The translations under genes were made by a program, and so were the position numbers. DNA of 64,000 bases, from the NCBI RefSeq assembly GCF_001761485.1, contig NC_090772.1, positions 806,001-870,000 on the forward strand, given 5' to 3'. The notes below the pieces were generated by a model that saw only the letters and a program-made list of their open reading frames with translations, did not search any database and had not been told where the DNA came from. This stretch comes from Yarrowia lipolytica. Lineage: Eukaryota; Ascomycota; Dipodascomycetes; Dipodascales. Below, piece after piece: positions 1 through 44,397 of the stretch (position 1 is its first letter; the number at the start of each line of letters is the position of its first letter).

Positions 1-562
1 GGTCGCACTTGGCTGGGATTTTGATGGGCATGGACAGGTTGGTGTCGTCTTCCATGAGGTCGTCTTCGTCCATGAGGTCGTCGTCGTCCATGGATAGAGT
101 CACGACAGAGTTGAGGTTGACGGTAGCGGCGGGGTTAGTTCCGTTGGTCGAGGGAGCCGCAGTTGCTGGACTGGCTCTCTTGAATGCAAACTTCTTGGGG
201 CCTCCTCCCGACTTCTTGAGCAGCGTGGTTCCTGTGGCGGCAGGCTTGACCCACTTGTCGCCGTCCTGGGCCAGACCCGCCATGATGAAGTCCATGACCT
301 GGGAGCCGTCCACAGCACCGAACAGAGCTCCTCCGGGCGCCAGAGCGCCGCTCAGCGTCTCCAGCAATGATGCTGGCAGAGTCACGGGCTGTGGCGACTT
401 TGTAAACACCTGGATGGAGGCGTATGTGTTTGCTGGTAGCTGGACCTGGGTGCCTATTCGTTCCAGCAGCTGGTGCGATGCGCCTTGGTTCTGGGCCATG
501 ATGTTGGCCACCAGCGCCTCGTCGGTGACCACCGAGTTGTCGAATACCAGTAGGTTAGACAT
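1..562 (-). CDS. DRE2: Fe-S cluster assembly protein Dre2 (anamorsin), N-terminal part, cut by the left edge
   Basis: The minus-strand frame opens at the ATG whose complement is CAT at 560-562 and stays open to base 1, giving 187 complete codons. The protein starts MSNLLVFDNSVVTDEALV and has an N-terminal domain resembling the degenerate methyltransferase-like domain of Dre2. A linker with KKFAFKRASP follows, then an acidic run DDDDLMDEDDLMEDD and the lead-in IPAKCD to the Cys-rich part. The Fe-S-binding C-terminus with its CxxC motifs lies outside the window. In the family, Dre2 works with the diflavin reductase Tah18 in the cytosol and intermembrane space to supply electrons for cytosolic Fe-S protein assembly. 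The call rests on the domain order and the conserved FK(K/R)AS and acidic DEDDL-type motifs. The acidic segment is encoded by a GAY-rich tract, so its length may vary between strains. Confidence 0.85.
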   Translation of the reverse strand, partial: MSNLLVFDNSVVTDEALVANIMAQNQGASHQLLERIGTQVQLPANTYASIQVFTKSPQPVTLPASLLETLSGALAPGGALFGAVDGSQVMDFIMAGLAQDGDKWVKPAATGTTLLKKSGGGPKKFAFKRASPATAAPSTNGTNPAATVNLNSVVTLSMDDDDLMDEDDLMEDDTNLSMPIKIPAKCD

Positions 563-4514: not shown

Positions 4515-4523
4515 TATATAAAG
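4515..4523 (+). promoter_or_regulatory. TATA box of the STF2-like gene
   Basis: TATATAAAG lies about 115 bases upstream of the ATG at 4639. The leader between them is rich in CA and free of ATG. A strong TATA fits a stress-inducible gene of this family. Confidence 0.7.
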
Positions 4524-4638
4524 GCGGGGGCCAGGCGCCTGAAATGACTCCCCATCAGCTTTGACTCGTTCAAACAGAAACACATCCACCGCAAACACAC
4601 CCACCGCAAACACACTCCCCACCACCACTACTCCAACC

Positions 4639-9863: not shown

Positions 9864-11330
9864 CTACCCGGTGAAACTGGAACTCTCGCGTAAACTAAAC
9901 TTTCGCTTCATCAGCTCATCCTGATCTGCAAGAGACAACTTGTTGATGACTTTATCCATCTCGTCCTCGTCGTAGTCGTAGTCCAGCTTGTTGAGGGCCT
10001 TTCGGGTCTGACGGCGTTCTCGTTTGGCTCTCAGGTCATCGTCATCATCTCCGTTATCGTCGTCATCGTCGTCGTCATCGTTATCATCATCATCGTCGTC
10101 GTTGTCATCGTCGTCATTGTCAACGTTGTCGAGATCGATATCGTCGCCGTTTTCGTCGTCTCCATTATCGTCATCGTCTCCGTTGTCGTCATCCTCTTCC
10201 TCCGGGTAGCCACCGAGCTTGAGCACAATCTTGTCAACAATCTCGTTCCAGTCCATCATGCCTCCCATGCCAATCTCTCCGTACGAGCCCACCACCTTTT
10301 CGACTGGTCGAAGTACCTCGATCCAGGGCATTTCCTCCTTGATAACCTTGAGATGGCGCTTGGTCACGGGTGAGTTATAGGCATACGACGTCATGGAAGG
10401 AGCCACCAGAATGGGGTACTGTGTGTTCCATGCTCGCACGACATTGGTAAGCAGGTTGTCGCAAAGGCCAATGGCGATTTTGGACAGGGTGTTTGCGGAC
10501 AGAGGACAGATGACGAGAATGTCGGCCCACCGTCTGAGCTCAATGTGCAGTACGGGGTCCGACCGGGACTTCCAGGTCGACCACTCGTCCTTGTCTCGCC
10601 ACAGAATCACGTCTGTATGGAACTCGCCGCGGCTGACAAAGTGTTCAGCCGCCGAGGTGAGCACAATCTGGATCGCCACTCGATTGCGTCCGTAAATCTC
10701 CTCCAGCTTGTTGACTATGAGACGCAGCTTGGAGGTTGACACCGACCCCGTACCGCCCAGCAGAATGTGGATCTTGCCGTCGTCCTGGGGCAACCGTGGG
10801 TCTCCCTGCTGGGTCGTGTCTTCGCCCACAGCCGTGGACTGGCGCCTTGCGATGGGAATCTCTGTGGGGGGAGGGTGGCCTCCAGCCGGGTTACTGAGGG
10901 TGCTTTCGACAATGGAGATTTGTTTGGGGGTTTGCTGGGTTGGCGAGACGGTCTGGTTGCGGCCGCTGGCAGACCCCGACCGGCTGCGGGTGTTGGCGTG
11001 CTGGTCAATGTCGTCGAGCTTGAAATGGGCGTGCACGCTGGGTTGTTTGGCGTGCTTGACCGAGGTGTCGATGATGCTGGGCTGCCGCGACCGGGGTTCG
11101 GGCAGCGCAATGTGAATCTCGTTGGCCGAGTCGCGGCTCAGCTCACGCTTGAGCTGGTCCTTGGGGTCGTCCAGCGAGTCCAGCGACGCCGCCAGGTTGC
11201 TTTTCTGCATGATGCCCTGAGGCTTGTCTCCCTGCTGCTGCGACGGGTGCTCCTTGCGGAAGTCGAGTCCCTTGTCGTCGAGAAACTTGGACGGGTGGGG
11301 CGTTTCGATTTTGAAGGTCGGTTTCGCCAT
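9864..11330 (-). CDS. SIS2: Hal3/Sis2-family flavoprotein (Ppz1 inhibitor, PPCDC-like subunit)
   Basis: 488 residues. Residues 1-185 are a low-complexity Ser/Gln-rich extension. Residues 186-375 are the flavoprotein domain, beginning KIHILLGGTGSVSTSKL, and the tail is almost all Asp/Glu/Asn. In yeast, Hal3/Sis2 and Vhs3 inhibit the phosphatase Ppz1 and also join Cab3 in a trimeric phosphopantothenoylcysteine decarboxylase for CoA synthesis, where active sites are shared between subunits. The conserved His is present (LHIELRRWADIL, His262). The PxMN position reads PSMTSYAY (Thr314), and the Cys of the substrate clamp is replaced (VGSYGEIGMGG, Tyr350). It could therefore contribute only the His half of a site. 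The acidic tail is coded by a GAY microsatellite (10024-10200). The start at 11328-11330 is the first ATG of the frame. Vhs3 is the alternative name; the family is firm. Confidence 0.9.
   Translation of the reverse strand: MAKPTFKIETPHPSKFLDDKGLDFRKEHPSQQQGDKPQGIMQKSNLAASLDSLDDPKDQLKRELSRDSANEIHIALPEPRSRQPSIIDTSVKHAKQPSVHAHFKLDDIDQHANTRSRSGSASGRNQTVSPTQQTPKQISIVESTLSNPAGGHPPPTEIPIARRQSTAVGEDTTQQGDPRLPQDDGKIHILLGGTGSVSTSKLRLIVNKLEEIYGRNRVAIQIVLTSAAEHFVSRGEFHTDVILWRDKDEWSTWKSRSDPVLHIELRRWADILVICPLSANTLSKIAIGLCDNLLTNVVRAWNTQYPILVAPSMTSYAYNSPVTKRHLKVIKEEMPWIEVLRPVEKVVGSYGEIGMGGMMDWNEIVDKIVLKLGGYPEEEDDDNGDDDDNGDDENGDDIDLDNVDNDDDDNDDDDDDNDDDDDDDDNGDDDDDLRAKRERRQTRKALNKLDYDYDEDEMDKVINKLSLADQDELMKRKFSLRESSSFTG
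10024..10200 (-). repeat. GAY trinucleotide tract coding an acidic tail
   Basis: A run of GAT/GAC codons broken by AAT and GGA codes the Asp-rich tail of the Hal3-like protein. Such tails are usual in Hal3 and Vhs3. Length differences between strains are likely. Confidence 0.85.
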
Positions 11331-15073: not shown

Positions 15074-15862
15074 TTACATAATCCATCGCTCCTTGACCAC
15101 ATCGCCGATGGTCTCCAGCTCGGGCGTCTTCTCGCCCAGATCAGCAAGTGTAACCTCATCAAAGGCGTTGGTCACCATGTCACGCATGATGGCAGTTCGC
15201 TTGAGAGCAACCTCCCGGCCGGGGGCAGTCTTCATCTTCTTGTGCATATGCAAGAGCTTGGCCCCAAAGTGGGACATGGTATCCTCGTCGTCCTCGTCTC
15301 CGGTCAGAACCAATGGCCGATTCTTGGCACCGGAGTAGGCGGCAAGTCGTAGAATGCCCATGGCTCCGATGGCATCCAGTCGGTCGGCGTCCTGCACCAG
15401 GTGCAGCTCGACACACTCGTTGTGCCACTTGCCCCACTGGCCAGCCTCTCGGAGCTTCTTCTCCGTCGAGTAGCTCATGTTGTTGGCAATCTTGACCACC
15501 AGGTCCTGCTGCTCCTGAGTCAGGTCGGACTCCTGCAGACACTTCATCATGACATCCTCGCCGTTGTTGAGCTGATCCCGGTACTTGGAATCGTTCACGT
15601 CATGCAGCAGCGCCGCCACCTCGACCACCTTCTCGTCGACGGGCTGGGTCTCGGCCACCTTTCGGGCCAGAACCTTGGCCATTCGCACCACCCGGTTGAC
15701 ATGGTGCATGTCGTGGGACGGGTCAAATTGCTGCATGTGGTTAGTCACCATCTCGTGCATGGTGGCCATGGGATCCCGGGCTGTGGCAGAAAACTTGAGC
15801 TGCTGGGGCTGCTGAGGCTGAGTCTGTGTCATGGTTGTGGAGGTAGAAGTAGTTGTGCTCAT
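15074..15862 (-). CDS. HD-domain metal-dependent phosphohydrolase
   Basis: 262 residues from the ATG at 15862. The frame is open a further 27 codons to 15943, but that part is a translated CA/AAC microsatellite, so MSTTTSTST or the next ATG at 15832 is a likelier start. The HD metal-site residues are all visible: HDMHHVNRV, then LLHDVNDSKY (the HD pair), then QDADRLDAIGAMGI. This layout matches the YedJ-like HD hydrolases of bacteria and their fungal relatives, which probably act on nucleotides or other phosphomonoesters; the substrate is unknown here. No signal peptide or membrane segment is seen, so it is probably cytosolic. A TATATATAG near 16043-16051 (minus) is a fitting TATA box. Confidence 0.8.
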   Translation of the reverse strand: MSTTTSTSTTMTQTQPQQPQQLKFSATARDPMATMHEMVTNHMQQFDPSHDMHHVNRVVRMAKVLARKVAETQPVDEKVVEVAALLHDVNDSKYRDQLNNGEDVMMKCLQESDLTQEQQDLVVKIANNMSYSTEKKLREAGQWGKWHNECVELHLVQDADRLDAIGAMGILRLAAYSGAKNRPLVLTGDEDDEDTMSHFGAKLLHMHKKMKTAPGREVALKRTAIMRDMVTNAFDEVTLADLGEKTPELETIGDVVKERWIM

Positions 15863-15945
15863 TTGTGTTTGTGTTTGTGTTTGTGTTTGTGTAATGTTGG
15901 TAATGTTGGTAATGTTGGTGTGTGTAATTGTGTGTGTGTGCAATA
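15863..15945. repeat. TTTGTG / TAATGTTGG microsatellite at the 5' end of the HD gene
   Basis: Short tandem units TTTGTG, then GTAATGTTG, then GTGTGT. The sequence is open in the HD gene frame but looks like leader. Confidence 0.75.
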
Positions 15946-20269: not shown

Positions 20270-21432
<1,163 letters not shown>

Positions 21433-23536: not shown

Positions 23537-26500
23537 ATGAGAAGTTTGCTCTTATCGGCTATTTGGGCGCTGGGCAGGCTTGCCTCGGCGCTCCAGCAAG
23601 CCCCAGACGAGTGTATTTCTCGCCAACTTTTTTCAATCCCTGGTTGCAACTTAGCTTGCAACTCCCTAATTTCCGACGGCAACGACAGTGCTCTTGAGGA
23701 GGTATGTATTAGAACCAATGGCGACAGGTGACAAAGATGACTAACACAGTGCTTGCAGTGCCTTTCCCTGTTTGATTTGGACCAGGCTTATGTTCGTTAC
23801 ATTCGTGACAAGAACCTACCCTTGACTCCTATTGTGCCCGTTTGCGATGCTCTGACCGACCAAGTCGAATACTTGCTCACAGCCCACATGGCTGCCCGCC
23901 AGCAAGCGCGATTCAACGGTCCAATGGATACCAGTGCCATGACCGCCTCTGCTATTGCCCCCGTGGGGTTTGAGGTGAGATTGAGGGAGCCCACACCCAC
24001 GGCTCCCACACTGAGAAGACGAGATATTCCCGAGGAGTACTCTGTTTCTTGTCAGCCGGACACTACCACCACCTCCTGCTACAACTTCAACAACGGACTC
24101 ACCAAGGACCAGTGCTCCACCATCTGTACCAACATCGGTAAGGACTCCCTGAAGAAGTGTCCGATCATCATTTCTAAACAGGACTGTTGGTGTACGTACT
24201 TCAGCGACAATGCGCAGAATATTGCCGATTGTGTCCAGTGTCTCGGTCTCTACTCTGACAACTTCCTCCTGCTTTATCCCCTTGTGCTGTCCAACTACGA
24301 CAAGTGTGGCTATGCAACAACTGCCAGCACAGTATGCGAAACCTCAACCCTGGCCGGTCCCTGTTCGTCCAATCTCATCAGCAGATACACCAAGTATCTA
24401 TCTGGAACTTCTCCCACAGAAGTGGCTATGGTCGACGACGCAGGACTCCCATTTATCGAGAAGGTTGTGGTTCCTGAAACCGTCACAGGAAACAGAGAGG
24501 GTCTCTCCACACTGACAGATTCCGGAGGTCATGCTACTGGACTGGTGGTTGTGGTTCAAAACCCAGACTACAAGGTGTCCTGTGAACCAGACATCTCCAC
24601 CACTACGTGTTATCCTATCAACCCTGGTTTGACAAAGGACGACTGTACAAAGAAGTGTAACAATGTTGGACTTTCCAGCGCTCTGTGCGTTGCCAATCTA
24701 GGAATTGGAAATTGTTGGTGTGACTCCTTTGATAAGAACGCACAGGATGTTGCCGATTGTGTACAGTGTCTCAGTCTTTACACCGACAACTTCCTAGCAG
24801 TTTACCCTTTGGTGCTTGGTCAGATTGAAAAGTGTAAGAGGGCTACTACTGCAAGTACCACTTGTCACCCTACTGTGCTTGAGGGTGAATGCACTTCCAC
24901 TCTTATCACCACTTACACTTCTATCATTCCCGGCCCCTCGCCTCATGTGACTACTACGGTTGACGCCACTGGAAACCCCTACGTCGAGAAGGTTGTCATT
25001 CCCGAAACCATTACCGGTGCTCGAACTGGACTTTCGACCATGAGTGACGCTGATGGAGAGGCCACAGGACTGGCGGTCATCGTCCACAACCCAGATTACT
25101 ACTACACGTGTGAGCCTGACACTTCTACCCAGAGTTGCGGCGTCAATTCTTCTGGACTCACGTTCGACTTTTGTTTCAACGCCTGTCTCAAGATTGGCCA
25201 GGGAACTATCAAATGTCTGCTTCAGCTCCAAACGTGTTGGTGTGACTTCTTCACTGCCAACGCCAAAAACGTGGCCGATTGCATCCAGTGTCTGAGTATC
25301 TTCACCATTGACCTGCAGGCTTTCCCCGACCTGTTGTCAAACATTGGTGCTTGTGGTTTCAAGACTACAGCCACCACCGAATGCTTCAGCTCCACAATTT
25401 ACGGCATGTGTCAATCCACTCCTATCCCCCAGTACACTTCTTTCGTAACTGGCGCCACGTCTGGAGGTGCAACCGTGATTGATGAGAATGGAAGACCTTT
25501 CCTAGAGGAGACCATCGTTCCCCAGACTATCACCGGACTGAAACCAGGCACATCCACCATGAGAGATGACAACGGGGTTCCTACTGGCCTTGTCATCACT
25601 TCGGTGCCTGAGTGGTCTGAATACTGTGAGCCAGATACCACGACCGAGATCTGCCACATTGTGGACCGTGGATACAAAGGTCTCGACTGTAACAATGCTT
25701 GTCAGGCTCTTGTTAGTGGCATAGGCAAATGTCCTGTTGCTGGAGACTGTTGGTGCAATTTCTTCGCGGATAATGCCCAGAACGTCGATGACTGTCGTCA
25801 ATGCAGAGCTCTGAATCCTGACAACCTGTTACAAAAGGTCCCAGTTGTAATGTCCAACATGGAAAGCTGTGGACTGCCTACTACCGCCAGTTCTTCGTGC
25901 GTTACATCCACCGTGAAGGGAGCCTGTACTTCGCTGTCAGTTCCACCTGTCAAGCCTGAGATTGTGACCGGTTCGGTCCCGGGATTCTCTGTGTCCACAG
26001 ACTCTCTTGGAGACCCTCACGTCATCCAGACACTGGTACCTTCTACTGTTACAGGCGCCACTGCAGGAACTTCTAGTATTCTGAACAGCGATGGAGATGT
26101 CACGGGAGTGGTTGTGACTACTACAGTTCCTTTTGTACCCGACACTGTGATCACTGGAGCGGTTCCTGGATCCACCACTTTGGTCGATGAGGATGGAAAC
26201 AGTCACGTCATTGAAACCATTGTTCCCACTACTGTAAGTGGAGATACTCCCGGAACATCCTCTATTCTCGACGATGATGGTATTGTTACAGCAGTCATTG
26301 TTACCGAGACCCCACAATCGGGCTCTGGAGCAGGTGATGAAGTGGATACCATTGTTGCGACTGGGTCTGAGCCTGGCACCCTGACAACTGTTGATGAGAA
26401 CGGCAGCACCCACGTGATTGAGACTCTGGTTCCTTCCACAGTCTCTGGCGAGACTGCTGGTACTTCAAGTCTTACTAACAGTGACGGAGTCGTCACTGGA

Positions 26501-29500
26501 ATTGAGGTGACTGAGACTGGTGCTCAGACTCCAACTCCGACTCCCGACGTTATTACCACTGGCTCCATTCCTGGTACGTCTACATCTGTTGATGAAAACG
26601 GCAGCACTCACGTGATCGAGACCCTGGTTCCTACTACAATCTCTGGCGAGACTGCTGGTACCTCAAGTCTTACCAACAGTGATGGAGTTGTCACTGGAAT
26701 CGAAGTCACCGAGACTGGACCTAAGATTCCAACTCAAACTCCCGATGTTGTCACTACTGGCTCCATTCCCGGTACTTCGACGTCGGTCGATGAGAATGGT
26801 AGCACTCACGTGGTTGAGACCCTGGTTCCGACTACAGTCTCTGGTGAGACTGCTGGTACTTCAAGTCTTACTAACAGTGACGGAGTTGTCACTGGAATTG
26901 AGGTGACTGAGACTGGACCTCTGACAGGACCTCAGACTCCAACTCAGACACCTGATGTTGTAACCACTGGCTCCATTCCCGGCACTTCAACATCTGTTGA
27001 CGAGAATGGCAGCACTCACGTCATCGAGACCCTAGTCCCCTCGACAGTCTCTGGAGAGACTGCTGGTACCTCAAGTCTTACCAACAGTGAAGGAGTTGTC
27101 ACCGGAATCGAAGTCACCGAAACTGGACCTCTGACTCCTACTAAGACTCCCGATGTCGTCACCACTGGCTCTATTCCCGGCACTTCGACATCTGTTGACG
27201 AGAACGGCAGCACTCACGTCATCGAGACCCTGGTTCCTTCCACCGTGTCTGGTGAGACTGCTGGTACTTCAACTCTTACTAATAGTGACGGAGTTGTCAC
27301 TGGAATTGAGGTGACTGAGACTGGTCCTCTGGCTCCAACCGAGACTCCCGATGTCCTCACCACTGGCTCTATTCCTGGTACTTCGACATCTGTCGACGAG
27401 AATGGAAGCACTCACATCATCGAGACTCTTGTCCCCACGACAGTCTCCGGCGAGACTGCTGGTACTTCAACTCTCACCAACAGTGACGGTGTTGTCACAG
27501 GAATCGAAGTCACCGAGACTGGACCTCTGACTCCAACTCAGACTCCCGATGTTGTCACCACTGGCTCCATTCCCGGCACTTCGACATCTGTCGACGAGAA
27601 TGGAAGCACTCACGTGATTGAGACTCTGGTCCCCTCAACAGTCTCCGGCGAGACTGCTGGCACCTCAACTCTTACCAATAGTGACGGAGTTGTTACCGGA
27701 GTTGAAGTCACCCAGACTGGACCTGTGACTCCTACTAAGACTCCCGATGTCGTCACCACTGGTTCTATTCCCGGCACTTCGACATCTGTTGACGAGAACG
27801 GCAGCACTCACATCATCGAAACTCTTGTCCCCACGACAGTCTCCGGCGAGACTGCTGGTACTTCAACTCTCACCAACAGTGACGGAATCGTCACTGGAAT
27901 TGAGGTGACTGAGACTGGACCTCTGACTCCAACTCAGACTCCCGATGTTGTCACCACTGGCTCCATTCCCGGCACCTCGACATCTGTCGACGAGAATGGA
28001 AGCACTCACGTGATTGAGACCCTGGTTCCTTCTACAGTCTCAGGAGGGACTGCTGGTACTTCAAGTCTTACCAACAGTGACGGAGTTGTCACCGGAATTG
28101 AGGTGACTGAGACTGGACCTAAGACTCCAACTCAGACTCCCGATGTTGTCACTACTGGCTCCATTCCTGGTACTTCGACATCTGTTGACGAGAATGGAAG
28201 CACTCACGTCATCGAGACCCTAGTTCCCTCAACAGTCTCTGGCGAGACTGCTGGTACTTCAAGTCTTACCAACAGTGACGGAGTTGTCACCGGAATCGAA
28301 GTCACCGAAACCGGTCCTCTGACTCCAACACAGACTCCCGACGTTATCACCACTGGCTCTATTCCTGGTACTTCGACATCTGTCGATGAGAATGGAAGCA
28401 CTCACGTGATTGAGACCCTGGTTCCTACTACAGTCTCAGGAGAGACTGCTGGTACTTCAAGTCTTACCAACAGTGACGGAGTTGTCACTGGAATTGAGGT
28501 GACTGAGACTGGACCTCTGACAGGATCTCAGACTCCAACCCAGACTCCTGACATCATAACTACTGGATCTGTACCCGGTACATCGACATCTGTTGACGAG
28601 AATGGCAGCACCCACGTGATCGAGACTCTGGTTCCCTCAACTGTCTCTGGCGAGACTGCTGGAACTTCCAGCCTCACCAACAGTGACGGAATCGTCACTG
28701 GAGTTGAAGTGACTGAAACTGGACCTCTGACAGGATCTCAGACTCCAACCCAGACTCCTGACATCATAACTACTGGATCTGTACCCGGTACATCGACATC
28801 TGTTGACGAGAACGGCAGCACTCACGTGATCGAGACCCTGGTTCCTTCAACAGTCTCCGGCGAGACTGCTGGCACCTCAACTCTTACCAACAGTGACGAA
28901 GTTGTTACCGGAGTTGAAGTCACCCAGACTGGACCTGTGACTCCAACTCAGACCCCCGATGTCGTCACCACTGGACCCGTACCTGGTACATCGACATCTG
29001 TTGACGAGAATGGCAGCACTCACGTGATCGAGACCCTTGTCCCTACAACAGTCTCTGGCGAGACTGCTGGTACTTCAAGTCTTACCAACAGTGACGGAGT
29101 TGTCACTGGAATTGAGGTGACTGAGACTGGTCCTCTGGCACCAACTCAGACTCCGGACGTTGTCACCACTGGACCTGTTCCCGGCACATCGACATCTGTT
29201 GACGAGAATGGAAGCACCCACGTGATTGAGACCCTGGTTCCTTCAACAGTCTCTGGCGAGACTGCTGGTACTTCAAGTCTTACCAACAGTGACGGAATCG
29301 TCACTGGAATTGAGGTGACTGAGACTGGATCTCAGACTCCAACCCAGACTCCTGACATCATCACTACTGGATCTGTACCCGGTACATCGACATCTGTTGA
29401 CGAGAATGGAAGCACCCACGTGATCGAGACTCTGGTCCCCTCAACAGTCTCCGGCGAGACTGCTGGCACCTCAACTCTTACCAACAGTGACGAAGTTGTT

Positions 29501-32500
29501 ACCGGAGTTGAAGTCACCCAGACTGGACCTGTGACTCCAACTCAGACCCCCGATGTCGTCACCACTGGACCCGTACCTGGTACATCGACATCTGTTGACG
29601 AGAATGGCAGCACTCACGTGATCGAGACCCTTGTCCCTACAACAGTCTCTGGCGAGACTGCTGGTACTTCAAGTCTTACCAACAGTGACGGAGTTGTCAC
29701 TGGAATTGAGGTGACTGAGACTGGTCCTCTGGCACCAACTCAGACTCCGGACGTTGTCACCACTGGACCTGTTCCCGGCACATCGACATCTGTTGACGAG
29801 AATGGAAGCACCCACGTGATTGAGACCCTGGTTCCTTCAACAGTCTCTGGCGAGACTGCTGGTACTTCAAGTCTTACCAACAGTGACGGAATCGTCACTG
29901 GAATTGAGGTGACTGAGACTGGATCTCAGACTCCAACCCAGACTCCTGACATCATCACTACTGGATCTGTACCCGGTACATCGACATCTGTTGACGAGAA
30001 TGGAAGCACCCACGTGATCGAGACTCTGGTCCCCTCAACAGTCTCCGGCGAGACTGCTGGCACCTCAACTCTTACCAACAGTGACGAAGTTGTTACCGGA
30101 GTTGAAGTCACCCAGACTGGACCTGTGACTCCAACTCAGACCCCCGATGTCGTCACCACTGGACCCGTACCTGGTACATCGACATCTGTTGACGAGAATG
30201 GCAGCACTCACGTGATCGAGACCCTTGTCCCTACAACAGTCTCTGGCGAGACTGCTGGTACTTCAAGTCTTACCAACAGTGACGGAGTTGTCACTGGAAT
30301 TGAGGTGACTGAGACTGGTCCTCTGGCACCAACTCAGACTCCCAATGTCGTCACCACTGGCTCTGTACCTGGTACATCGACATCTGTTGACGAGAATGGC
30401 AGCACCCACGTGATCGAGACCCTGGTCCCCTCAACAGTCTCCGGAGAGACAGCTGGCACCTCTAGTTTGACAAACAGCGACGGAATCGTCACTGGAGTTG
30501 AAGTGACTGAGACTGGTCCTCTGACTGGATCTCAGACCCGCGACGTTGTTGTCACGACCGGTTCCATTCCTGGTACATCAACATCAGTTGACGAGAACGG
30601 CAGCACTCACGTGATCGAGACTCTGGTTCCCTCAACAGTGTCTGGCGAGACTGCTGGTACTTCAACTCTTACTAACAGTGACGGAGTCGTCACTGGAATT
30701 GAGGTGACTCAGACTGGTCCTCTGGCACCAACTCAGACTCCCGACGTTATCACCACTGGCTCCATTCCCGGCACATCAACATCTGTCGACGAGAATGGCA
30801 GCACTCACGTCGTCGAGACCCTGGTTCCTTCGACTGTTTCTGGCGAGTCTGCTGGTACTTCAAGTCTTACTAACAGTGACGGAATCGTCACCGGAGTTGA
30901 AGTCACTGAGACTGGACCTCTGACTGCACCTCAGACTCCCGATGTCATCACCACTGGCTCTGTACCTGGCACTTCGACATCTGTCGATGAGAATGGAAGC
31001 ACTCACGTCATAGAAACCCTGGTTCCTACTACAGTCTCCGGCGAGACTGCTGGTACTTCAAGTCTTACCAACAGTGACGGAATCGTCACTGGAATCGAAG
31101 TCACAGAAACCGGTCCTCTGGCTCCTACTCAGACTCCCGATGTCGTCACCACTGGATCTATTCCCGGCACTTCGACGTCTGTCGACGAGAATGGAAGCAC
31201 CCACGTGATCGAGACCCTGGTTCCTTCTACAGTCTCTGGTGAGACTGCTGGTACTTTAAGTCTTACTAACAGTGACGGAGTTGTCACTGGAATTGAGGTG
31301 ACTGAGACTGGTCCTCTGGGACCAACTCAGACTCCCGACGTTATCACCACTGGCTCTATTCCCGGCACTTCGACATCTGTCGACGAGAATGGAAGCACTC
31401 ACGTGATTGAGACCCTGGTTCCTACTACAATCTCTGGCGAGACTGCTGGTACTTCAAGTCTTACTAACGGTGACGGAATCGTCACTGGAGTTGAGGTGAC
31501 TGAGACTGGTCCTCTGACAGGATCTCAGACTCCGACCCAGACTCCTGACATCATAACTACTGGTTCTATTCCCGGCACTTCGACATCTGTTGACGAGAAC
31601 GGCAGCACTCACATCATCGAAACTCTTGTCCCCACGACAGTCTCCGGCGAGACTGCTGGTACTTCAACTCTCACCAACAGTGACGGAATCGTCACTGGAA
31701 TTGAGGTGACTGAGACTGGACCTCTGACTCCAACTCAGACTCCCGATGTTGTCACCACTGGCTCCATTCCCGGCACCTCGACATCTGTCGACGAGAATGG
31801 AAGCACCCACGTGATCGAGACCCTGGTCCCCTCAACAGTGTCCGGAGAGACAGCTGGCACCTCTAGTTTGACAAACAGCGACGGAATCGTCACTGGAGTT
31901 GAGGTCACCGAAACTGGACCTGTGACTCCTACTCAGACTCCCGACGTTATCACCACTGGACCTGTACCCGGAACATCAACATCTGTCGATGAGAACGGTA
32001 GTACTCACGTGATCGAGACCCTGGTTCCTACTACAGTCTCTGGTGAGACTGCTGGTACTTCAAGTCTTACCAACAGTGACGGAATCGTCACTGGAATTGA
32101 GGTGACTGAGACTGGACCTTTGGCTCCAACCGAGACTCCAGACGTCATCACCACTGGTTCCATTCCCGGCACTTCGACATCTGTCGACGAGAATGGAAGC
32201 ACCCACGTGATTGAGACCCTGGTTCCTACTACAGTCTCCGGTGAGACTGCTGGTACCTCAAGTCTTACCAACAGTGACGGAATCGTCACTGGAATTGAAG
32301 TCACCAAAACCGGTCCTCTGACTCCAACACAGACTCCCGATGTCCTCACCACTGGCTCTATTCCAGGTACTTCCACATCTGTCGACGAGAATGGAAGCAC
32401 TCACATCATCGAGACTCTGGTTCCTACTACAGTCTCCGGCGAGACTGCTGGCACGTCTAGTTTAACAAACTCAGATGGAATCGTCACAGGAATCGAAGTC

Positions 32501-35500
32501 ACCGAGACTGGACCTCTGACTCCAACACAGACTCCCGATGTCGTGACCACTGGCTCTATTCCTGGTACTTCGACGTCGGTCGATGAAAATGGTAGCACTC
32601 ACGTGGTTGAGACCCTGGTTCCGACTACAGTCTCTGGTGAGACTGCTGGTACTTCAAGTCTTACTAACAGTGACGGAGTTGTCACTGGAATTGAGGTGAC
32701 TGAGACTGGTCCTCAAACTCCAACTCAGACTCCCGATGTCGTCACCACAGGCTCTATTCCTGGTACTTCGACATCTGTTGACGAGAATGGCAGCACCCAC
32801 GTGATCGAGACTCTGGTTCCCTCAACTGTCTCTGGCGAGACTGCTGGAACTTCCAGCCTCACCAACAGTGACGGAATCGTCACTGGAGTTGAAGTGACTG
32901 AGACTGGACCTCTGGCACCAACTCAGACTCCTGACATCATCACCACTGGATCTGTACCCGGTACATCGACATCTGTTGACGAGAATGGCAGCACCCACGT
33001 GATCGAGACCCTGGTTCCTACTACAGTCTCTGGCGAGACTGCTGGTACTTCAAGTCTTACCAACAGTGATGGAGTTGTCACCGGAGTTGAAGTCACCCAG
33101 ACTGGGCCTGTGACTCCTACTCAGACTCCCGACGTTATCACCACTGGACCTGTACCCGGCACATCAACATCTGTTGATGAGAACGGTAGTACTCACGTCA
33201 TCGAGACCCTGGTTCCTTCAACAGTCTCTGGCGAGACTGCTGGTACTTCAAGTCTTACCAACAGTGACGGAATCGTCACTGGAGTTGAAGTGACTGAAAC
33301 TGGACCTCTGACAGGATCTCAGACTCCAACCCAGACTCCTGACATCATAACTACTGGATCTGTACCCGGTACATCGACATCTGTTGACGAGAATGGCAGC
33401 ACCCACGTGATCGAGACCCTGGTCCCTACAACAGTCTCTGGCGAGACTGCTGGTACTTCAAGTCTTACCAACAGTGACGGAATCGTCACTGGAGTTGAAG
33501 TGACTGAGACTGGACCTCTGACAGGATCTCAGACTCCAACCCAGACTCCTGACATCATCACTACTGGATCTGTACCCGGTACATCGACATCTGTTGACGA
33601 GAACGGCAGCACCCACGTGATCGAGACCCTGGTCCCCTCAACTGTCTCTGGAGCGACTGCTGGTACTTCAAGTCTTACTAACAGTGACGGAGTCGTCACT
33701 GGAGTTAAAGTGACTGAGACTGGACCTCTGACAGGATCTCAGACTCCAACCCAGACTCCTGACATCATCACTACTGGACCTGTACCCGGTACATCGACAT
33801 CTGTTGACGAGAACGGCAGCACCCACGTGATCGAGACCCTGGTCCCCTCAACTGTCTCTGGAGAGACTGCTGGTACCTCAAGTCTTACCAACAGTGACGG
33901 AGTTGTCACCGGAGTTGAAGTCACCCAGACTGGACCTCTGACTCCTACTCAGACTCCCGACGTTATCACCACTGGACCTGTACCCGGCACTTCGACGTCT
34001 GTTGACGAGAACGGCAGCACCCACGTGATTGAGACCCTGGTTCCTACTACAGTCTCTGGAGAGACTGCTGGTACTTCAAGTCTTACCAACAGTGACGGAG
34101 TTGTCACCGGAGTTGAAGTCACCCAGACTGGACCTCTGACTCCTACTCAGACTCCCGACGTTATCACCACTGGACCTGTTCCCGGCACATCGACATCTGT
34201 TGACGAGAACGGCAGCACCCACGTGATCGAGACCCTGGTCCCCTCAACAGTCTCCGGAGAGACTGCTGGCACGTCTAGTTTGACAAACAGCGACGGAATC
34301 GTCACTGGAGTTGAAGTCACCCAGACTGGACCTCTGGCAACTCAGACTCCCGACGTTATCACCACTGGACCGGTACCCGGCACATCAACATCTGTCGATG
34401 AGAATGGAAGCACTCACGTGATCGAGACCCTGGTCCCCTCAACAGTCTCCGGCGAGACTGCTGGCACCTCAACTCTTACCAACAGTGACGGAGTTGTTAC
34501 CGGAGTTGAAGTCACCCAGACTGGACCTCTGACTCCAACTCAGACCCCCGATGTCGTCACCACTGGACCTGTTCCCGGCACATCAACATCTGTGGACGAG
34601 AATGGCAGCACCCACGTGATCGAGACCCTGGTTCCTACTACAGTCTCTGGCGAGACTGCTGGTACTTCAAGTCTTACCAACAGTGACGGAGTCGTCACTG
34701 GAATTGAAGTCACAGAAACCGGTCCTCTGGCTCCTACTCAGACTCCCGATGTCGTCACCACTGGCTCTATTCCCGGCACATCAACATCTGTCGATGAGAA
34801 CGGTAGTACTCACGTCATCGAGACCCTGGTTCCTACTACAGTCTCTGGTGAGACTGCTGGTACTTCAAGTCTTACCAACAGTGACGGAATCGTCACTGGA
34901 ATTGAGGTGACTGAGACTGGACCTTTGGCTCCAACCGAGACTCCAGACGTCATCACCACTGGTTCCATTCCCGGCACTTCGACATCTGTCGACGAGAATG
35001 GAAGCACCCACGTGATCGAGACCCTGGTCCCCTCAACAGTCTCCGGAGAGACTGCTGGCACGTCTAGTTTGACAAACAGCGACGGAATCGTCACTGGAGT
35101 TGAAGTCACCCAGACTGGACCTCTGACTCCAACTCAGACTCCCGACGTTGTCACCACTGGACCTGTACCCGGAACATCAACATTTGTCGATGAGAACGGT
35201 AGTACTCACGTCATCGAGACCCTGGTTCCTTCCACTGTTTCTGGCGAGACTGCTGGTACCTCAAGTCTCACCAATAGCGATGGAATTGTTACCGGAATTG
35301 AAGTCACTGAGACTAACCCTCAGACTCCCGACGTCGTTACCACTGGTCCCATTCCTGGTAGATCGACATCTGTTGACGAGAATGGTAGCACACACGTGAT
35401 CGAGACTCTTGTTCCTTCGACACTTTCTGGCGAGACCGCTGGTACGTTAACTCTCACCAACGGCGACGGCGTTGTCACTGGAGTTGTTGTCACTGTAGCA

Positions 35501-38500
35501 TCCACACCCGTGAAACCGGACGTGGTTGAGACTGGTCCTGTGGCTGGCACATCAACTATTGACGATGGTAATGGACACACCAGTGTGGTTGTGACTCTGG
35601 TACCTTCCACCACCTTCGGCGATGTGCCTGGCACCTCAAGTCTTACCAACAGTGACGGAATCGTCACTGGAGTTGTCGTTACTGATACCATGGACCACAC
35701 ACCTGACATTGTAACCACTGGATCTGTTCCCGGCTTCGCCACGTCTGTTGATGTTGATGGTAGTACCCACTATGTCCTGACTGTGGTTCCATCGACAGTC
35801 ACTGGTGATACACCTGGTACTCTGAGTGTTCCTGATGATCGAGGCGTTATCACTGGCGTAGTTGTCACTGTGACGCCAACCAAGCCTGATTTTGTGACTA
35901 CCGGCTCTATTCCTGGTACTTCAACATCTATCGATGGTGAAGGAAGTACCCATTTGATTGTCACTTTGGTTCCTTCGACTGTTTCAGGCGAAACCGCTGG
36001 TACCTCGAGTCTGACAAACAGTGATGGAATTGTGACTGGAATCGAAGTCACCCAAACCACTGCACAGACTCCTGACATTGTTACTACTGGATCTGTTCCC
36101 GGCACCACGACATCCACCGATGACGTTGGAGGCTCGCATGTGATTGTTACCGTTGTCCCTAAGACCGTGACAGGAGATACCGCCGGAACTTCAAGCCTCA
36201 CCAATTCGGATGGTGTTATCACTGGTGTCGAGGTTACAGAGACCTCCAGCCACAAGCCCGACGTTGTAACGACAGGACCTGTTGCTGGCACCACCACGTA
36301 CACAGATGTTGACGGCAACACCCAGATCATTGCTACCGTCGTACCCAGTACGCTGACCGGCGATGTTCCGGGTACTTCTAGCGTCACCAACTCGGACGGC
36401 ATTGTGACAGGCGTCGAAGTCACCGAAACCTCTCCTGTGAAACCTGACTATGTCACGACTGGTTCCGTCCCTGGAACCTCCACTTCTCGAGACGACGATG
36501 GCAACACACATGTGATTGTGACTGTCGTACCTAGCACCACGTTTGGAGATGTTCCTGGAACATCCAGTCTCACAAACTCCGACGGTGTCGTCACCGGCGT
36601 GGAGGTTACTCAAACCACTGACCATAAGCCCGATGTCGTCACCACTGGATCTGAACCTGGTTTCTCTACCTCCGTTGACGACGACGGCAGCACTCATTAT
36701 GTTCTCACTGTCGTTCCATCTACCGTCACCGGTGATACGCCCGGAACTACAAGCCTGACCAACAGCGATGGCGTTGTCACCGGAGTTGAAGTCACTCAAT
36801 CATCTCGACATACCCCCGATCTTGTGACCACTGGCGAATCAGCAGGAACCACAACTTTCACAGACGACAACCATAACACTCACGTGGTTGTTACGGTTGT
36901 TCCCAGTACTGTAACAGGCGATGTTGCCGGAACCTCTAGTATTGTCGACGATGATGGAGTTGTGACGGGAGTTGTGATTACTAAGACGACAGAACCTTAT
37001 GCCATCACTACTGGACCCGTGCCTGGAATTTCAACCTCGACTGATAGCGATGGAAACACTCATTATATTGAAACCCTGGTGCCTACAACACTCACTGGAG
37101 ACGTTGCAGGCACGACAAGTCTCACCGACAGCGACGGACATGTCACCCAAGTCCTAGTCACCGAGACACCTACCGGTGGATCTGGCCTAGGAGGAGATCA
37201 ACCAACATCTGTGGTTACGGGCCCTACTGCGGGTACTGTCACCACTATTGATGAGGCAGGAAGCACTCACTACGAAGTCACAGTTGTCCCCACTACTGTG
37301 ACTGGCAGTGTTCCTGGAACCTTGAGTATTCCCAATGACAATGGAGTTATCACCGGCGTGATCGTGACTGTGACACCTACAAAGCCCGATATCGTTACTA
37401 CGGGATCTGTGGCAGGTACTACCACTGTCGATGATGGTAATGGACAAACAAGTGTTATCGTTACACTTGTGCCCTCTACGACTTTCGGTGATATTCCTGG
37501 CACATCCAGTTTTGTGGATGATGACGGAATCGTTACTGGAGTTGTGGTTACTGAAACTATGGATCATACACCCGACGTTGTGACCACTGGTTCAGTACCT
37601 GGATTCGCTACGTCTGTTGACGTAGATGGATCTACCCACTATGTTCTCACTGTTGTTCCTTCCACTGTCACCGGTGATACACCTGGCACTCTGAGTGTAC
37701 CTGATGATCGAGGAGTTATTACTGGCGTTGTTGTCACCGTGACACCAGCGAAACCTGATGTTGTCGAGACCGGTCCTGTGGCCGGTACGTCAACTGTTGA
37801 CGACGGTAATGGACACACAAGCGTTGTTGTAACAGTTGTTCCTTCAACAGCCACCGGTGATGTCCCCGGTACATCCAGCATCCTTGATGATGATGGAATC
37901 GTCACTGGAGTTGTTGTAACCGTGACTCCCACACCTGTGAAACCCGACGTGGTTGAGACTGGTCCTGTGGCAGGCACATCAACTATCGACGATGGTAATG
38001 GACATACAAGTGTCATTGTGACTCTGGTACCCTCCACCACCTTCGGTGATGTGCCTGGCACCTCGAGTCTTACCAACAGTGATGGAATCGTCACTGGAGT
38101 TGTGGTTACCGATACCATGGATCATACACCCGACGTTGTTACCACTGGATCGGTTCCTGGATTCGCTACGTCTGTTGATGTAGATGGATCTACCCACTAT
38201 GTCCTGACTGTGGTTCCTTCCACTGTCACCGGCGATACACCAGGCACTCTGAGTGTACCTGATGATCGAGGAGTTGTCACTGGCGTTGTTGTCACCGTGA
38301 CACCAGCGAAGCCAGACGTTGTTGAGACTGGTCCTGTTCCTGGTACGACCACTATTGACGACGGTAATGGACACACAAGCGTTGTTGTAACAGTTGTTCC
38401 TTCAACAGCCACTGGTGATGTCCCCGGTACATCCAGCATCCTTGATGATGATGGAATCGTCACTGGAGTTGTTGTAACCGTGACTCCCACACCTGTGAAA

Positions 38501-41500
38501 CCCGACGTGGTTGAGACTGGTCCTGTGGCAGGCACATCAACTATCGACGATGGTAATGGACATACAAGTGTCATTGTGACTCTGGTACCCTCCACCACCT
38601 TCGGTGATGTGCCTGGCACCTCAAGCCTTACCAACAGTGACGGAATCGTCACTGGAGTTGTGGTTACCGATACCATGGACCATACACCCGACGTTGTGAC
38701 CACTGGATCGGTTCCTGGATTCGCTACATCTGTTGATGTAGATGGATCTACCCACTATGTCCTGACTGTGGTTCCTTCCACTGTCACCGGCGATACACCA
38801 GGCACTCTGAGTGTACCTGATGATCGAGGAGTTGTCACTGGAGTTGTTGTCACCGTGACACCCACGCCCGTGAAACCTGATGTTGTCGAGACTGGTCCTG
38901 TGGCCGGTACGTCAACTGTTGATGATGGCAATGGACATACAAGCGTCATTGTGACTCTTGTTCCTTCTACTGCCACTGGTGATGTCCCCGGTACCTCAAG
39001 TCTTACCAACAGTGACGGAATCGTCACCGGAGTTGTGGTCACCGTGACACCCACGCCCGTGAAACCTGATGTTGTCGAGACTGGTCCTGTGGCCGGTACG
39101 TCAACTATAGACGATGGTAATGGACACACCAGTGTCATTGTGACTCTGGTACCCTCCACCACCTTCGGTGATGTCCCTGGCACCTCAAGTCTCACCAACA
39201 GTGACGGAATCGTCACTGAAGTTGTGGTTACCGATACCATGGATCATACACCCGATGTTGTTACCACTGGATCTGTTCCTGGATTCGCTACATCTGTTGA
39301 TGTAGATGGATCTACCCACTACGTCCTAACCGTGGTTCCTTCCACTGTCACCGGTGATACACCTGGTACCCTGAGTGTACCTGATGATCGAGGAGTTGTC
39401 ACTGGCGTTGTTGTCACCGTGACACCAGCGAAGCCAGACGTTGTTGAGACTGGTCCTGTTCCTGGTACGACCACTATTGACGACGGTAATGGACACACAA
39501 GCGTTGTTGTAACAGTTGTTCCTTCAACAGCCACTGGAGACGTTCCTGGTACATCTAGCATTCTTGATGATGATGGAATCGTTACTGGAGTTGTCGTCAC
39601 TGTGACGCCGACGCCCGTGAAGCCTGATGTCGTCGAGACTGGTCCTGTGGCAGGCACGTCAACTATCGACGACGGTAATGGACACACCAGTGTCATTGTG
39701 ACTCTGGTACCCTCCACCACCTTCGGTGATGTGCCTGGCACCTCGAGTCTTACCAACAGTGACGGAATCGTCACTGGAGTTGTGGTTACTGAAACTATGG
39801 ATCATACACCCGACGTTGTGACCACTGGTTCAGTACCTGGATTCGCTACGTCTGTTGACGTAGATGGATCTACCCACTATGTCCTGACTGTGGTTCCTTC
39901 CACTGTCACCGGCGATACACCAGGCACTCTGAGTGTACCTGATGATCGAGGAGTTATTACTGGCGTTGTTGTCACCGTGACACCAGCGAAACCTGATGTT
40001 GTCGAGACCGGTCCTGTGGCCGGTACGTCAACTGTTGATGATGGCAATGGACATACAAGCGTCATTGTGACTCTTGTTCCTTCTACTGCCACTGGTGATG
40101 TACCCGGTACCTCGAGTCTAACCAACAGTGACGGAATCGTCACTGGAGTTGTTGTCACCTTGACACCCACACCCGTGAAGCCTGATGTTGTCGAGACTGG
40201 CTCCGTACCTGGTACGACCACTATCGACGATGGTAATGGACATACAAGTGTCATTGTGACTCTGGTACCCTCCACCACCTTCGGTGATGTGCCCGGCACC
40301 TCAAGCCTTACCAACAGTGATGGAATCGTCACTGGAGTTGTGGTTACCGATACCATGGACCATACACCCGACGTTGTTACCACTGGATCGGTTCCTGGAT
40401 TCGCTACATCTGTTGACGTAGATGGATCTACGCACTATGTGCTTACTGTTGTTCCTTCCACTGTCACCGGTGATACACCTGGTACCCTGAGTGTACCTGA
40501 TGATCGAGGAGTTGTTACTGGCGTGGTTGTGACCGTTACACCCACGCCCGTGAAACCCGACGTTGTCGAGACAGGCCCCGTGGCAGGCACGTCAACCATC
40601 GACGATGGTAATGGACATACAAGCGTTGTTGTGACTCTTGTTCCCTCCACCACCTTCGGTGATGTCCCTGGCACCTCAAGTCTCACCAACAGTGACGGAA
40701 TCGTCACTGGAGTTGTGGTTACCGATACCATGGATCATACACCCGACGTTGTGACCACTGGATCGGTTCCTGGATTTGCTACGTCTGTTGATGTAGATGG
40801 ATCTACCCACTATGTTCTCACTGTTGTTCCTTCCACTGTCACTGGAGACACACCTGGTACCCTGAGTGTTCCTGATGATCGAGGAGTTGTTACTGGCGTG
40901 GTTGTGACCGTTACACCCACGCCCGTGAAGCCTGATGTTGTCGTGACTGGATCTGTTCCTGGTACAACCACTATCGACGATGGTAATGGACATACCAGCG
41001 TCATTGTGACTCTTGTTCCTTCTACTGCCACTGGTGATGTCCCCGGTACCTCGAGTCTTACCAACAGTGACGGAATCGTCACCGGAGTTGTGGTCACCGT
41101 GACACCCACACCCGTGAAGCCTGATGTTGTCGAGACTGGTCCTGTGGCCGGTACGTCAACTATAGACGATGGTAATGGACACACCAGTGTCATTGTGACT
41201 CTGGTACCTTCCACCACCTTCGGTGATGTGCCCGGCACCTCGAGTCTTACCAACAGTGACGGAATCGTCACTGGAGTTGTGGTCACTGATACTATGGATC
41301 ATACACCCGATGTTGTTACCACTGGATCTGTTCCTGGATTCGCTACATCTGTTGATGTAGATGGATCTACCCACTATGTCCTAACCGTGGTTCCTTCCAC
41401 TGTCACCGGCGATACACCAGGCACTCTGAGTATACCCGATGATCGAGGCGTTGTCACTGGTGTAATTGTAACTGTGGCACCTTCACCGAAGCCAAGTGTT

Positions 41501-43504
41501 ACTACTGGACCTGTGGCCGGTTCGACCACAATTGGTGATGACAACGGACAGTCCCATGTTGTCGTGACTGTCGTGCCGACGACAGTCACTGGTGATGTCG
41601 CTGGCACTTCAAGTGTGCAGAATGGCGATGGAGTCGTCACAGGCGTCATCGTTACAGATACCTCGCAGGGCGGAGGTAACCAAGGAGGAGGCTTAGGAGG
41701 AGAAGAGGAAACGGATGTTGTGACTGGCTCCCTACCTGGCACCGTCACCACCAAGAACGACGCAGGAAGCACCTTCTATGTAGTTACAGTGGTACCATCT
41801 ACCGTAACAGGTGAATCTCCTGGCACGTCCAGCCTCTCCAACACTCATGGCGATGTGACAGCAGTTATTGTTACTGTGACATCATCTGTGAAGCCCGATG
41901 TCGTAACGACAGGCCCTATTCCGGGTACAACAACCATCGACGACGGAGATGGAAGTTCTCGAGTTGTCGTCACCGTAATTCCCACGACGGCGAGTGGTGA
42001 CACTCCCGGTACGTCGAGTGTCACAAACGATGATGGCGTCGTCACTGGCGTCATAGTCACCCAGACCTCTGCGCCATCGCTTCCCACTTTCACCACTGGT
42101 TCGACTGCTGGAACTTCAACGTCAACAGACGACTCAGGAAACACCCACATTATTGTGACTGTGGTTCCCAGTACCGTGACGGGTATCGTTCCTGGCACAT
42201 CAACTTTGGCCGATGATAGTGGCGTTGTCACTGGTGTAATCGTTACCACGGCTTCCTCCATCTTCCAGCCCGACGTTGTGGTCACAGGTTCCACTCCTGG
42301 CGTGTCTGTCTCTACCAATCCTCAAGGCAGCACTGTAATCATCGAAACCTTAGTGCCAACGACAGTAACGGGAGACGAGGAAGGAACATCAAGCCTTACC
42401 AACAGCAACGGAGTTGTTACGGATGTTATTGTCACAGTGCTACCAACAGTTACGACAACAGAATCTGGATCCGGTTTTGGCGACGAAGGCGATGGAGCAG
42501 GAACAACAGTAGTGACTGGCTCCTCAGCAGGTACCTCCACGTTGACAGACGGAGGTGTCTCGCGTGTGATTGTCACAGTGGTACCAACAACCTTGTCTGG
42601 TCCTGTTGGCGGCACCTCGACTCTCGTGGATAACAATGGCGTTCCAACAGGCGTCGAAGTAACCGTCGGTCCTCTGACAACCGGTTCTGGATCTGGTTCG
42701 TTCCCTGACTCGGAACATGGAGACTCTCAAGGTGTTCGAACACTGACAGACTCGCGTGGTTCTTCTTTTGTCATCCAGACATCAGATCAGACTACTACAG
42801 TTGGACCGACCCCTGGTACGTCAGTTATGACCGACAGCAATGGAGTCCCCACTGGCGTTGTGGTCACTGTTCTGCCCTCAAGAAGCAGTCCATTTAACCC
42901 CATTGGAGGCGACGCGTCGTCACTTTCCGTTTCATACCGAACCAGCACAGTTTCTCCTCTCGAAACTGCTGGACATGGTAGCGGCTTTGGATCCAACGAT
43001 GGCTCTTCAGATTCTGGATTCGGACAGCCTGACTCAGGAAGTGGAGGAAACGGAGGAAACGGAGGAAACGGAGGAAACGGAGGAAACGGAGGAAACGGAG
43101 GAAACGGAGGAAACGGAGGAAACGGAGGAAACGGAGAAAGCGGAGGATCTGGACACGGTAACACAGGCTCAGACTCTGGAGTTGGCGGTGTTAATGGACA
43201 AGGCGGAACTGGACAAGGTGGGGCTGGCTCTCACCCCGATTCTGGTTCCAATGGCGGAAATGGGGAATCTGGATTCGGAGGAGCAGGCTCTGGCTCGAAC
43301 CCAGACTCTGGCTCTCAACAAGGTGTTGGCGGAGGCGGCAGTGGAAATGGTGCAGGATTCGGATCCGACGGAAGCCAGGAGACACCTGCGTTGTACTCCA
43401 GCTCTGGTTCAGGTCCTCTCCAGGCCAACAATGCTCGCGGTCTCAAGCCCCATCAAGGCTTTGTTCTGGGCTCACTGATGGCATTCGTCTTGCTTGTCAT
43501 GTAA
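23537..43504 (+). CDS. Giant repeat-built, probably GPI-anchored cell-surface protein (adhesin-like), about 6639 residues
   Basis: Exon 1 (23537-23701) codes 55 residues starting with signal peptide MRSLLLSAIWALGRLASA. After a 48-base intron, exon 2 runs 23750-43504 without a stop, for 6584 more residues. Order of parts: a partial Cys-rich module (about 25-90); four full Cys-rich modules spaced about 175 residues apart, starting near 156, 332, 508 and 680, each with PDT...C, CWC and DCxxC; about 87 tandem units of 61-66 residues from about 792 to 6430; a Gly/Asn/Ser-rich stretch with about ten GGN units; and the GPI-type end ANNARG...FVLGSLMAFVLLVM. I see no Cys after about residue 790. Thr/Ser-rich units fit an O-glycosylated wall stalk. 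By analogy with flocculins and Als proteins the Cys-rich head would bind and the array would display it; that is inference. The acceptor choice is supported by the join LEE-CLQCLSL, which matches DCVQCLSL in the later modules. No family name is assigned. Confidence 0.9.
23702..23749 (+). other. Intron of the giant gene
   Basis: 48 bases, GTATGTATT to CTAACACAG. A second AG nine bases on (TTGCAG, ending 23758) is also in frame and would drop the residues CLQ. The first fits the Cys pattern better. Confidence 0.85.
24041..25957 (+). repeat. Four Cys-rich modules of the giant protein
   Basis: Four modules of about 172-176 residues start near 24041, 24570, 25100 and 25617. Each has an N-terminal Cys-rich part (C-x-PDT, C-x3-C, CWC, DC-x2-C and later cysteines). 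In the first three this is followed by one repeat-like unit of the form VDxxGxPxxExxVPxTxTG...GLSTxxDxxGxxTGLxV. In the fourth module that unit is the first unit of the long array. I do not recognise the Cys-rich part; it is not a WSC or CFEM pattern as far as I can tell by eye. Confidence 0.85.
28855..30333 (+). repeat. 594-bp higher-order repeat inside the array
   Basis: A block of three units is repeated almost letter for letter from about 28855, 29449 and 30043, the last copy ending near 30333. The shared markers are TNSDEVVTG and the linker GSQTPTQTP. The near identity points to recent unequal exchange or gene conversion. Confidence 0.85.
37560..41490 (+). repeat. 558-bp higher-order repeat, type II part of the array
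   Basis: Three unit forms of 62, 61 and 63 codons rotate; for example the ACCATGGA(T/C)CATACACCC word recurs at about 38113 and 38671, 558 bases apart. Some turns lack one form or carry an extra one, so the order is not perfectly regular. Confidence 0.8.
43043..43133 (+). repeat. GGAGGAAAC nonamer repeat
   Basis: About ten copies of a 9-base unit code Gly-Gly-Asn near the end of the giant protein, just before the Gly/Ser-rich spacer and GPI-type tail. Confidence 0.9.
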
Positions 43505-43514
43505 GCCATGTATG

Positions 43515-43625
43515 GATTTTGCGAAGGATTTTGTGTGGTGGGTTGATGAAGATTTATGCGAAGGACTTTTTTGTGGAGAGGTTGATGAAGATTTTGCGAA
43601 GGATTTTGTGATGAATGTGTTGAAT
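43515..43625 (+). repeat. Three-copy 36-39-bp repeat in the 3' tail of the giant gene
   Basis: Copies at 43515-43550, 43551-43589 and 43590-43625 share GATTT(T)GCGAAGGA(T/C)TTT...GTTGATGAA. Spacing is 36 and 39 bases, both multiples of three, and the sequence is open from an ATG at 43512 to a TAA at 43647-43649. Confidence 0.8.
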
Positions 43626-44289: not shown

Positions 44290-44397
44290 ACAAAAATAAA
44301 TAGTATATGCAGAAAAAAAAATAGTAATAATAAATAAAAATAAATAATAATATAATAATAATTAATAATAAATTAATAATGAACAAAAAAAATAAAC
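44290..44397. repeat. AT-rich AAT/AATAA tract
   Basis: About 100 bases of almost pure A and T built of AAT and AATAA words. It could be part of an origin or simply low complexity; nothing more is shown. Confidence 0.7.

Follow-up and report, generated by a model that had tools for sequence, protein, structure and literature searches.

The locus examined here raises the question of what a yeast might do with a protein of 6639 residues, most of it built from one repeat. It lies in a 64,000-nucleotide stretch of Yarrowia lipolytica DNA (contig NC_090772.1, positions 806,001 to 870,000 of the forward strand; hereafter the window), where a two-exon gene occupies positions 23537–43504 of the plus strand. 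The spliced coding sequence of 19920 nucleotides yields 6639 residues with 0 internal stops, and the predicted protein runs from a signal-peptide-like start through a Cys-rich head and an array of two-part repeats (dyads) to a Gly-rich tail and a glycosylphosphatidylinositol (GPI)-type end. With a probability of roughly 0.6, we take the product to be a GPI-anchored Y. lipolytica wall glycoprotein, whose long stalk most likely displays the Cys modules of the head beyond the wall. The gene model, the modular anatomy, the two zones of the stalk and purifying selection between units are read from the sequence itself. The parts of the gene are as follows; a sequon is the motif N-x-S/T.

23537–23701, plus strand: exon 1, with the signal-peptide-like start (about residues 1–18, by eye) and the first half of a degenerate Cys module
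23702–23749, plus strand: intron of 48 nucleotides, with a GTATGT donor and a CTAACACAG end
23750–43504, plus strand: exon 2, open up to the TAA stop at 43502–43504
24050–24364, plus strand: Cys module 1, 12 Cys, residues 156–260
24404–24568, plus strand: dyad 1
24581–24892, plus strand: Cys module 2, 12 Cys, residues 333–436
24932–25096, plus strand: dyad 2
25109–25411, plus strand: Cys module 3, 12 Cys, residues 509–609
25451–25615, plus strand: dyad 3
25625–25927, plus strand: Cys module 4, 12 Cys, residues 681–781
25970–42877, plus strand: contiguous array, dyads 4–90 (87 units), the last degenerate and set by eye
26363–35533, plus strand: block 1, dyads 6–51, pitch mostly 66 residues (198 nucleotides)
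28847–30342, plus strand: tandem unit of three dyads (594 nucleotides) inside block 1
35534–37402, plus strand: middle dyads 52–61, mostly divergent, no sequon
37403–41506, plus strand: block 2, dyads 62–83, with VVVTVT or VIVTLV runs, no sequon
41507–42877, plus strand: C-terminal dyads 84–90, divergent, dyad 90 by eye
43043–43147, plus strand: GGN-coding minisatellite in the Gly/Ser-rich tail, 9 nucleotides × 11.7
43418–43501, plus strand: GPI-type C-terminus, the last 28 residues, with a short polar spacer and a hydrophobic end (by eye)

Two observations support the splice: exon 1 begins with what looks like a signal peptide, and the joined sequence is homologous to two of the head modules. 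The joined residues EE/CLQCLSLF resemble ADCVQCLSLY in module 2 (Z 4.6) and ADCIQCLSIF in module 3 (Z 5.1), both scoring above the best of 500 shuffles per module; modules 1 and 4 gave no significant score (Z 2.3 for either, below the best shuffles). The CTAACACAG end of the intron is presumably Yarrowia-like. The longest frame listed in the window, 23753–43504, is open from 23741. An intron-less model was disfavoured because its frame is without the signal-peptide-like start, and the second AG (23758) was disfavoured as an acceptor because the C-x2-C motif common to the other modules would be lost. The initial annotation had proposed a single frame plus a signal-peptide exon, about 87 units making up about 85 per cent of the protein, a Cys-rich head, and a secreted, GPI-type architecture. 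The uninterrupted coding sequence, the 87 contiguous dyads and their extent (residues 796–6440, 85.0% of the protein) bear this out, and both ends look present, the signal peptide and the GPI-type end having been judged by eye. The head could be refined to four 12-Cys modules alternating with dyads 1–3, plus one degenerate partial module spanning the intron: modules 1–3 are each followed by one dyad and then the next module, and after module 4 the array begins with dyad 4.

There are 90 dyads in all, 89 found by motif and one degenerate dyad placed by eye (about residues 6379–6431). Each consists of two related halves, A of 28 and B of about 27 residues, with a G-to-G distance of 28 in 88 of the 89 motif-found dyads; the relationship of the halves is reflected in an hhalign probability of 93.5 and an E value of 2.2e-7 (one comparison, 24 columns). 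The dyad pitch is mostly 66 residues in block 1 and 61–63 later. Ser and Thr account for 34% of the array, which contains 0 Cys, 0 Trp and 48 Lys plus Arg in 5645 residues. Cysteine spacing in the four head modules is 8-11-3-9/10-5..8-1-12-2-20/21-9-8. An AlphaFold model of one module with its dyad (mean predicted local distance difference test score, pLDDT, 78; predicted template modelling score, pTM, 0.44) showed a helical Cys module, its helices in blocks of pLDDT 76–90, and a beta-rich dyad; the input was an alignment of 24 rows taken from the copies within the window, and the other 4 of 5 models scored 50–61. A three-dyad model was poor (pLDDT 53, pTM 0.30), and its strand pattern alone was used, giving three strands per half. 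A beta-strand pattern appears in both models, of which the three-dyad one is weak.

We then asked whether the repeats are maintained as protein. The initial annotation had argued for selection from the open frame alone; a young amplification would be open too, and the actual test is the between-unit ratio, which leads to the same conclusion. Among dyads 6–50 of block 1 (45 units, 990 pairs), the proportion of silent differences (pS) was 0.414 and that of amino-acid-changing differences (pN) 0.041, a ratio of corrected means of 0.070 that compares unit with unit, not species with species; pN was below pS in 0.994 of the pairs. Block 2 (22 units, 231 pairs) gave a pS of 0.552, a pN of 0.185 and a corrected ratio of 0.214, and the 88 scored dyads, which leave out dyads 89 and 90, gave 0.603, 0.214 and 0.206 (3828 pairs). 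Because pairs are not independent, a second count was made of the extra allele states at each codon position. At positions 1/2/3 there were 18/10/83 in block 1 (45 dyads; binomial p 5e-19), and in three block 2 types, sorted by eye with dyad 62 left out, 4/1/28 (7 dyads; p 1.5e-9), 4/0/37 (8 dyads; p 4.7e-14) and 11/2/41 (6 dyads; p 1.8e-10). Gene conversion should act on both site classes alike. The small protein differences beside large silent differences in block 1 indicate that the repeat sequence is kept by purifying selection acting between units, and a young amplification that is open by chance was ruled out by the block 1 ratio of about 0.07 together with the third-position excess.

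The predicted stalk is of two zones, with a sharp sequon boundary. A sequon is present in 46 of 46 dyads from 6 to 51, versus 0 of the 43 other motif-found dyads; the whole protein has 48, and the two outside block 1 are both in the head. Runs of at least 5 consecutive V/I/T/F/Y/W/L/M, a count that is not an aggregation predictor, were compared with 200 shuffles per block. Block 1 contained 4 such beta-branched runs versus a shuffle mean of 37.5, and block 2 contained 36, more than any of its shuffles (mean 23.3, maximum 32), with a further 12 in the middle dyads and 11 in the C-terminal flank. Block 1 has a net charge of -348 in 3030 residues, and block 2 one of -132 in 1369.

The history of the array can be followed in its internal copies. 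Block 1 is an in-frame tandem repeat of 198 nucleotides × 45.6 copies (score 10754), with exact repeats of 693 nucleotides at offset 594 and 308 nucleotides at offset 1188. Block 2 repeats at a higher order every three dyads (about 186–188 residues), with a mean identity of 0.846 at lag 3, 0.822 at lag 6 and 0.633 at lag 1; together with the 594-nucleotide tandem copy in block 1, this suggests three-dyad exchange units in both blocks. In block 1, dyads that lie further apart are slightly less alike (Mantel r -0.147, p 0.002), no such fall was seen in block 2 (r 0.049, p 0.40), and exact copies also lie far apart (248 nucleotides at offset 3801). Weak distance decay and remote exact copies are what conversion or unequal exchange would be expected to leave throughout the block. 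Identity to the closest other dyad is 0.80–1.00 for dyads 6–51, 0.79–0.98 for dyads 62–83 and 0.64–0.77 for dyads 54–61; judging from the low values of dyads 1–5 (0.55–0.67) and 84–88 (0.63–0.68), the repeat set is old at its ends. Nine antisense frames (minus strand, 35770–42318, 151–217 codons) recur through the later array, a ladder that is probably a by-product of the repeat and does not speak for genes.

How such a protein might work can be proposed from its order of parts. The GPI end would hold the C-terminus at the membrane and then in the wall, and the 87 beta-rich Thr/Val dyads would form a very long stalk, about 260 nm at an assumed 3 nm per folded dyad. The zone near the wall would be block 2, rich in beta-branched runs, and the distal zone block 1, acidic and with one potential N-glycan site per dyad. 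The four 12-Cys modules would sit at the distal, N-terminal tip, most likely held out past the wall to make contact with cells, surfaces or a hydrophobic substrate. Expression, secretion, GPI anchoring, glycosylation, extension and the display or adhesion role are what we infer for the product. A more specific version, which we put forward tentatively and think rather unlikely as a whole, is a two-zone fibre in which the block 2-type foot clusters laterally in a cross-beta-like manner, the N-glycosylated, aggregation-avoiding distal part lifts an undescribed 12-Cys module by hundreds of nanometres, and length itself is kept. Holding the protein constant while silent sites drift would make the copies less alike as DNA and thereby slow down unequal exchange, by which the fibre length would be kept.

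Several results weigh against the display reading. Pfam was searched with hmmscan up to E 10 using residues 56–900, 860–1400, 3900–4700 and 6200–6639, the four head super-units and 20 single dyads, and these parts gave no match to an adhesin domain or repeat family: no PA14, GLEYA, Flo11 or flocculin repeat (PF00624, PF13928), no Als Ig-like N-terminal domain or Als repeats, no Hyphal_reg_CWP domain of the Hyr/Iff/Hil type, and nothing credible in head residues 56–900 or the four super-units. Foldseek with the head model gave 122 PDB matches, the best at E 0.21, without a credible fold match, and sequence searches of the PDB gave no credible match to the parts searched (best E 0.075 and 1.3 for single sequences). 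Codon usage is without the strong bias of the neighbouring GAPDH gene (Thr ACC 0.25 in block 1 versus 0.86; Gly GGA 0.47 versus 0.03) and therefore does not suggest high expression. The earlier proposal of a wall fibre or adhesin is supported as to architecture, and an adhesin identity stays a proposal, with no known adhesin domain or repeat family in the scanned parts; the structure prediction it called for gave the helical module and the beta-rich dyad but no fold match.

Among the alternatives, the main rival is a mucin-like protective or anti-adhesive coat, in which what counts is the bulk of a glycosylated, acidic stalk through its hydration, charge and spacing, the Cys modules serving only to cap or cross-link it. 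It fits the same anatomy, and the net charge of block 1, the sequon in each of its 46 dyads, its beta-branched runs far under the shuffles and the lack of a recognised binding domain in the scanned parts all agree with it. Four related 12-Cys tip modules are, however, hard to account for if bulk alone matters, and the runs of block 2 exceed even the shuffle maximum; we regard a coat as possible, though improbable. A CFEM-like device for haem or iron capture on a stalk is suggested by the inner eight of the twelve head-module cysteines (C-x3-C-x9/10-C-x5..8-C-x-C-x12-C-x2-C-x20/21-C in all four modules), whose order agrees with the CFEM consensus, and by the helical fold modelled for the module. 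Only five of the seven spacings fit that consensus in the four modules, though, as the last two (x2 and x20/21) fall outside it. Each module has four extra cysteines, an Asp directly precedes CxC in just 2 of 4, PF05730 was not listed up to E 10 for head residues 56–900 or the four super-units, and no CFEM structure was among the best 50 of the 122 fold matches, so that we consider this reading very unlikely. We also think it very unlikely that the array length is partly an assembly artefact with a wrong copy number, or that the gene is decaying. Assemblers can miscount copies in stretches such as the exact 693-nucleotide repeat. Apart from it, however, most units differ from one another (the 45 block 1 dyads have 40 different nucleotide cores), there are 0 stops or frameshifts in 6639 codons, and the between-unit ratio is far under 1.

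A stalk displaying Cys modules resembles GPI yeast adhesins (Flo, Als, Hyr/Hil; PMC6023273, PMC8621652, both in excerpt) in its signal-peptide-like start, N-terminal head, Thr/Ser-rich repeats and GPI-type end, and the Ser/Thr-rich tandem repeats of GPI wall adhesins are represented by the 87 contiguous dyads. Well-characterised Saccharomycotina adhesins are described in the excerpted text as often being GPI mannoproteins of 600–2500 residues, many of which combine Ser/Thr repeats and a stalk with a binding domain at the N-terminus (PMC6023273). The present protein differs in its 6639 residues and, from Flo, Als and Hyr/Hil adhesins, in that its head contains several copies of one module, with stalk repeats set between them. 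The adhesin-like Y. lipolytica genes YALI0C23452, YALI0F19030 and YALI0C11165, reported in excerpts of PMC8265631 and PMC9769893 to be regulated in filamentation, are likewise GPI-type and repeat-containing but sit at other loci, and the YALI0C11165 repeats SSTGGADA and NGNGSDGS (PMC9769893, excerpt) differ from the dyads; the present gene does not appear in these excerpts.

Megasatellites are long-motif in-frame tandem repeats in coding genes, such as wall genes of Candida glabrata, and block 1, with its 198-nucleotide in-frame motif in about 46 copies, agrees with this definition. Two array matches were rejected as repeat summation, as no single stretch passes: Noda_Vmethyltr (E 2.4e-8, above cut-off) and Importin_rep_5 (E 2.2e-5, below cut-off). 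The remaining Pfam matches of the giant protein were at E 0.02 or worse, and NCBIfam matches at 0.00097 or worse, far under cut-offs. PDB profile matches (best E 0.16 and 0.26), mostly to small Cys-rich venom proteins, were set aside as a chance cysteine pattern. No relative was confirmed in plasmids (array residues 860–1400), in phages, viral contigs and prokaryote genomes (dyads 54–56) or in viral contigs searched with head super-unit 2; the contig searches, made with one protein, detect close relatives only, and none of these searches is informative on fungi. Elsewhere in the window only weak matches were found, the best with the low-complexity tail (E 0.02).

The neighbouring genes place the locus on the published map. 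Y. lipolytica GAPDH forward primer, probe and reverse primer (YALI0C06369g; PMC8834811, excerpt) match the window at 20496, 20519 and 20547 (69 bases, 0 mismatches), which points to Y. lipolytica, or a source extremely near to it. Past the giant gene come a sugar transporter gene at 46247 (Pfam Sugar_tr, E 3.9e-135) and, at the right end of the window, a GMPPB-like gene (GMPPB_C, E 4.5e-35), in agreement with the order of YHT1 (YALI0C06424) and PSA1 (YALI0C06490), as tagged in excerpted sources. These three landmarks place the giant gene between YALI0C06369 and, most likely, YALI0C06424; the guessed tags YALI0C06380, 06391, 06402 and 06413 were not mentioned in the literature searched. A motif scan of the 1 kb upstream of the gene gave 2 GCCAAG on the minus strand and 0 CCCCT, counts without a chance estimate and given no weight. 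A 38-bp tandem repeat (about 2.6–2.9 copies, 43515–43623) begins 11 bases past the stop, presumably in the 3' untranslated region, and AT-rich tandem repeats follow at 44292–44395. Other repeats in the window include adjoining perfect (TTTGTG)5 and (GTAATGTTG)3 repeats at 15862–15919 and an acidic codon repeat at 10035–10131 (GTCATC on the plus strand, Asp-rich on the minus), towards the C-terminus of a flavoprotein (Pfam Flavoprotein, E 3.4e-27) whose acidic tail we take to recall Hal3/Sis2.

If expressed, the gene would give a polypeptide of about 657 kDa before glycans, well beyond the 600–2500 residues of the adhesins described in the excerpt of PMC6023273, with a Cys module and a repeat that both went unrecognised by Pfam in the parts scanned. 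With only 48 Lys plus Arg in 5645 residues, the array would be prone to escape standard tryptic proteomics. The host is an industrial yeast with good genetics, and the sequon boundary and the selection signal open a direct way to test how cell contact, such as that with oil droplets, depends on the length of the stalk and the chemistry of its zones.

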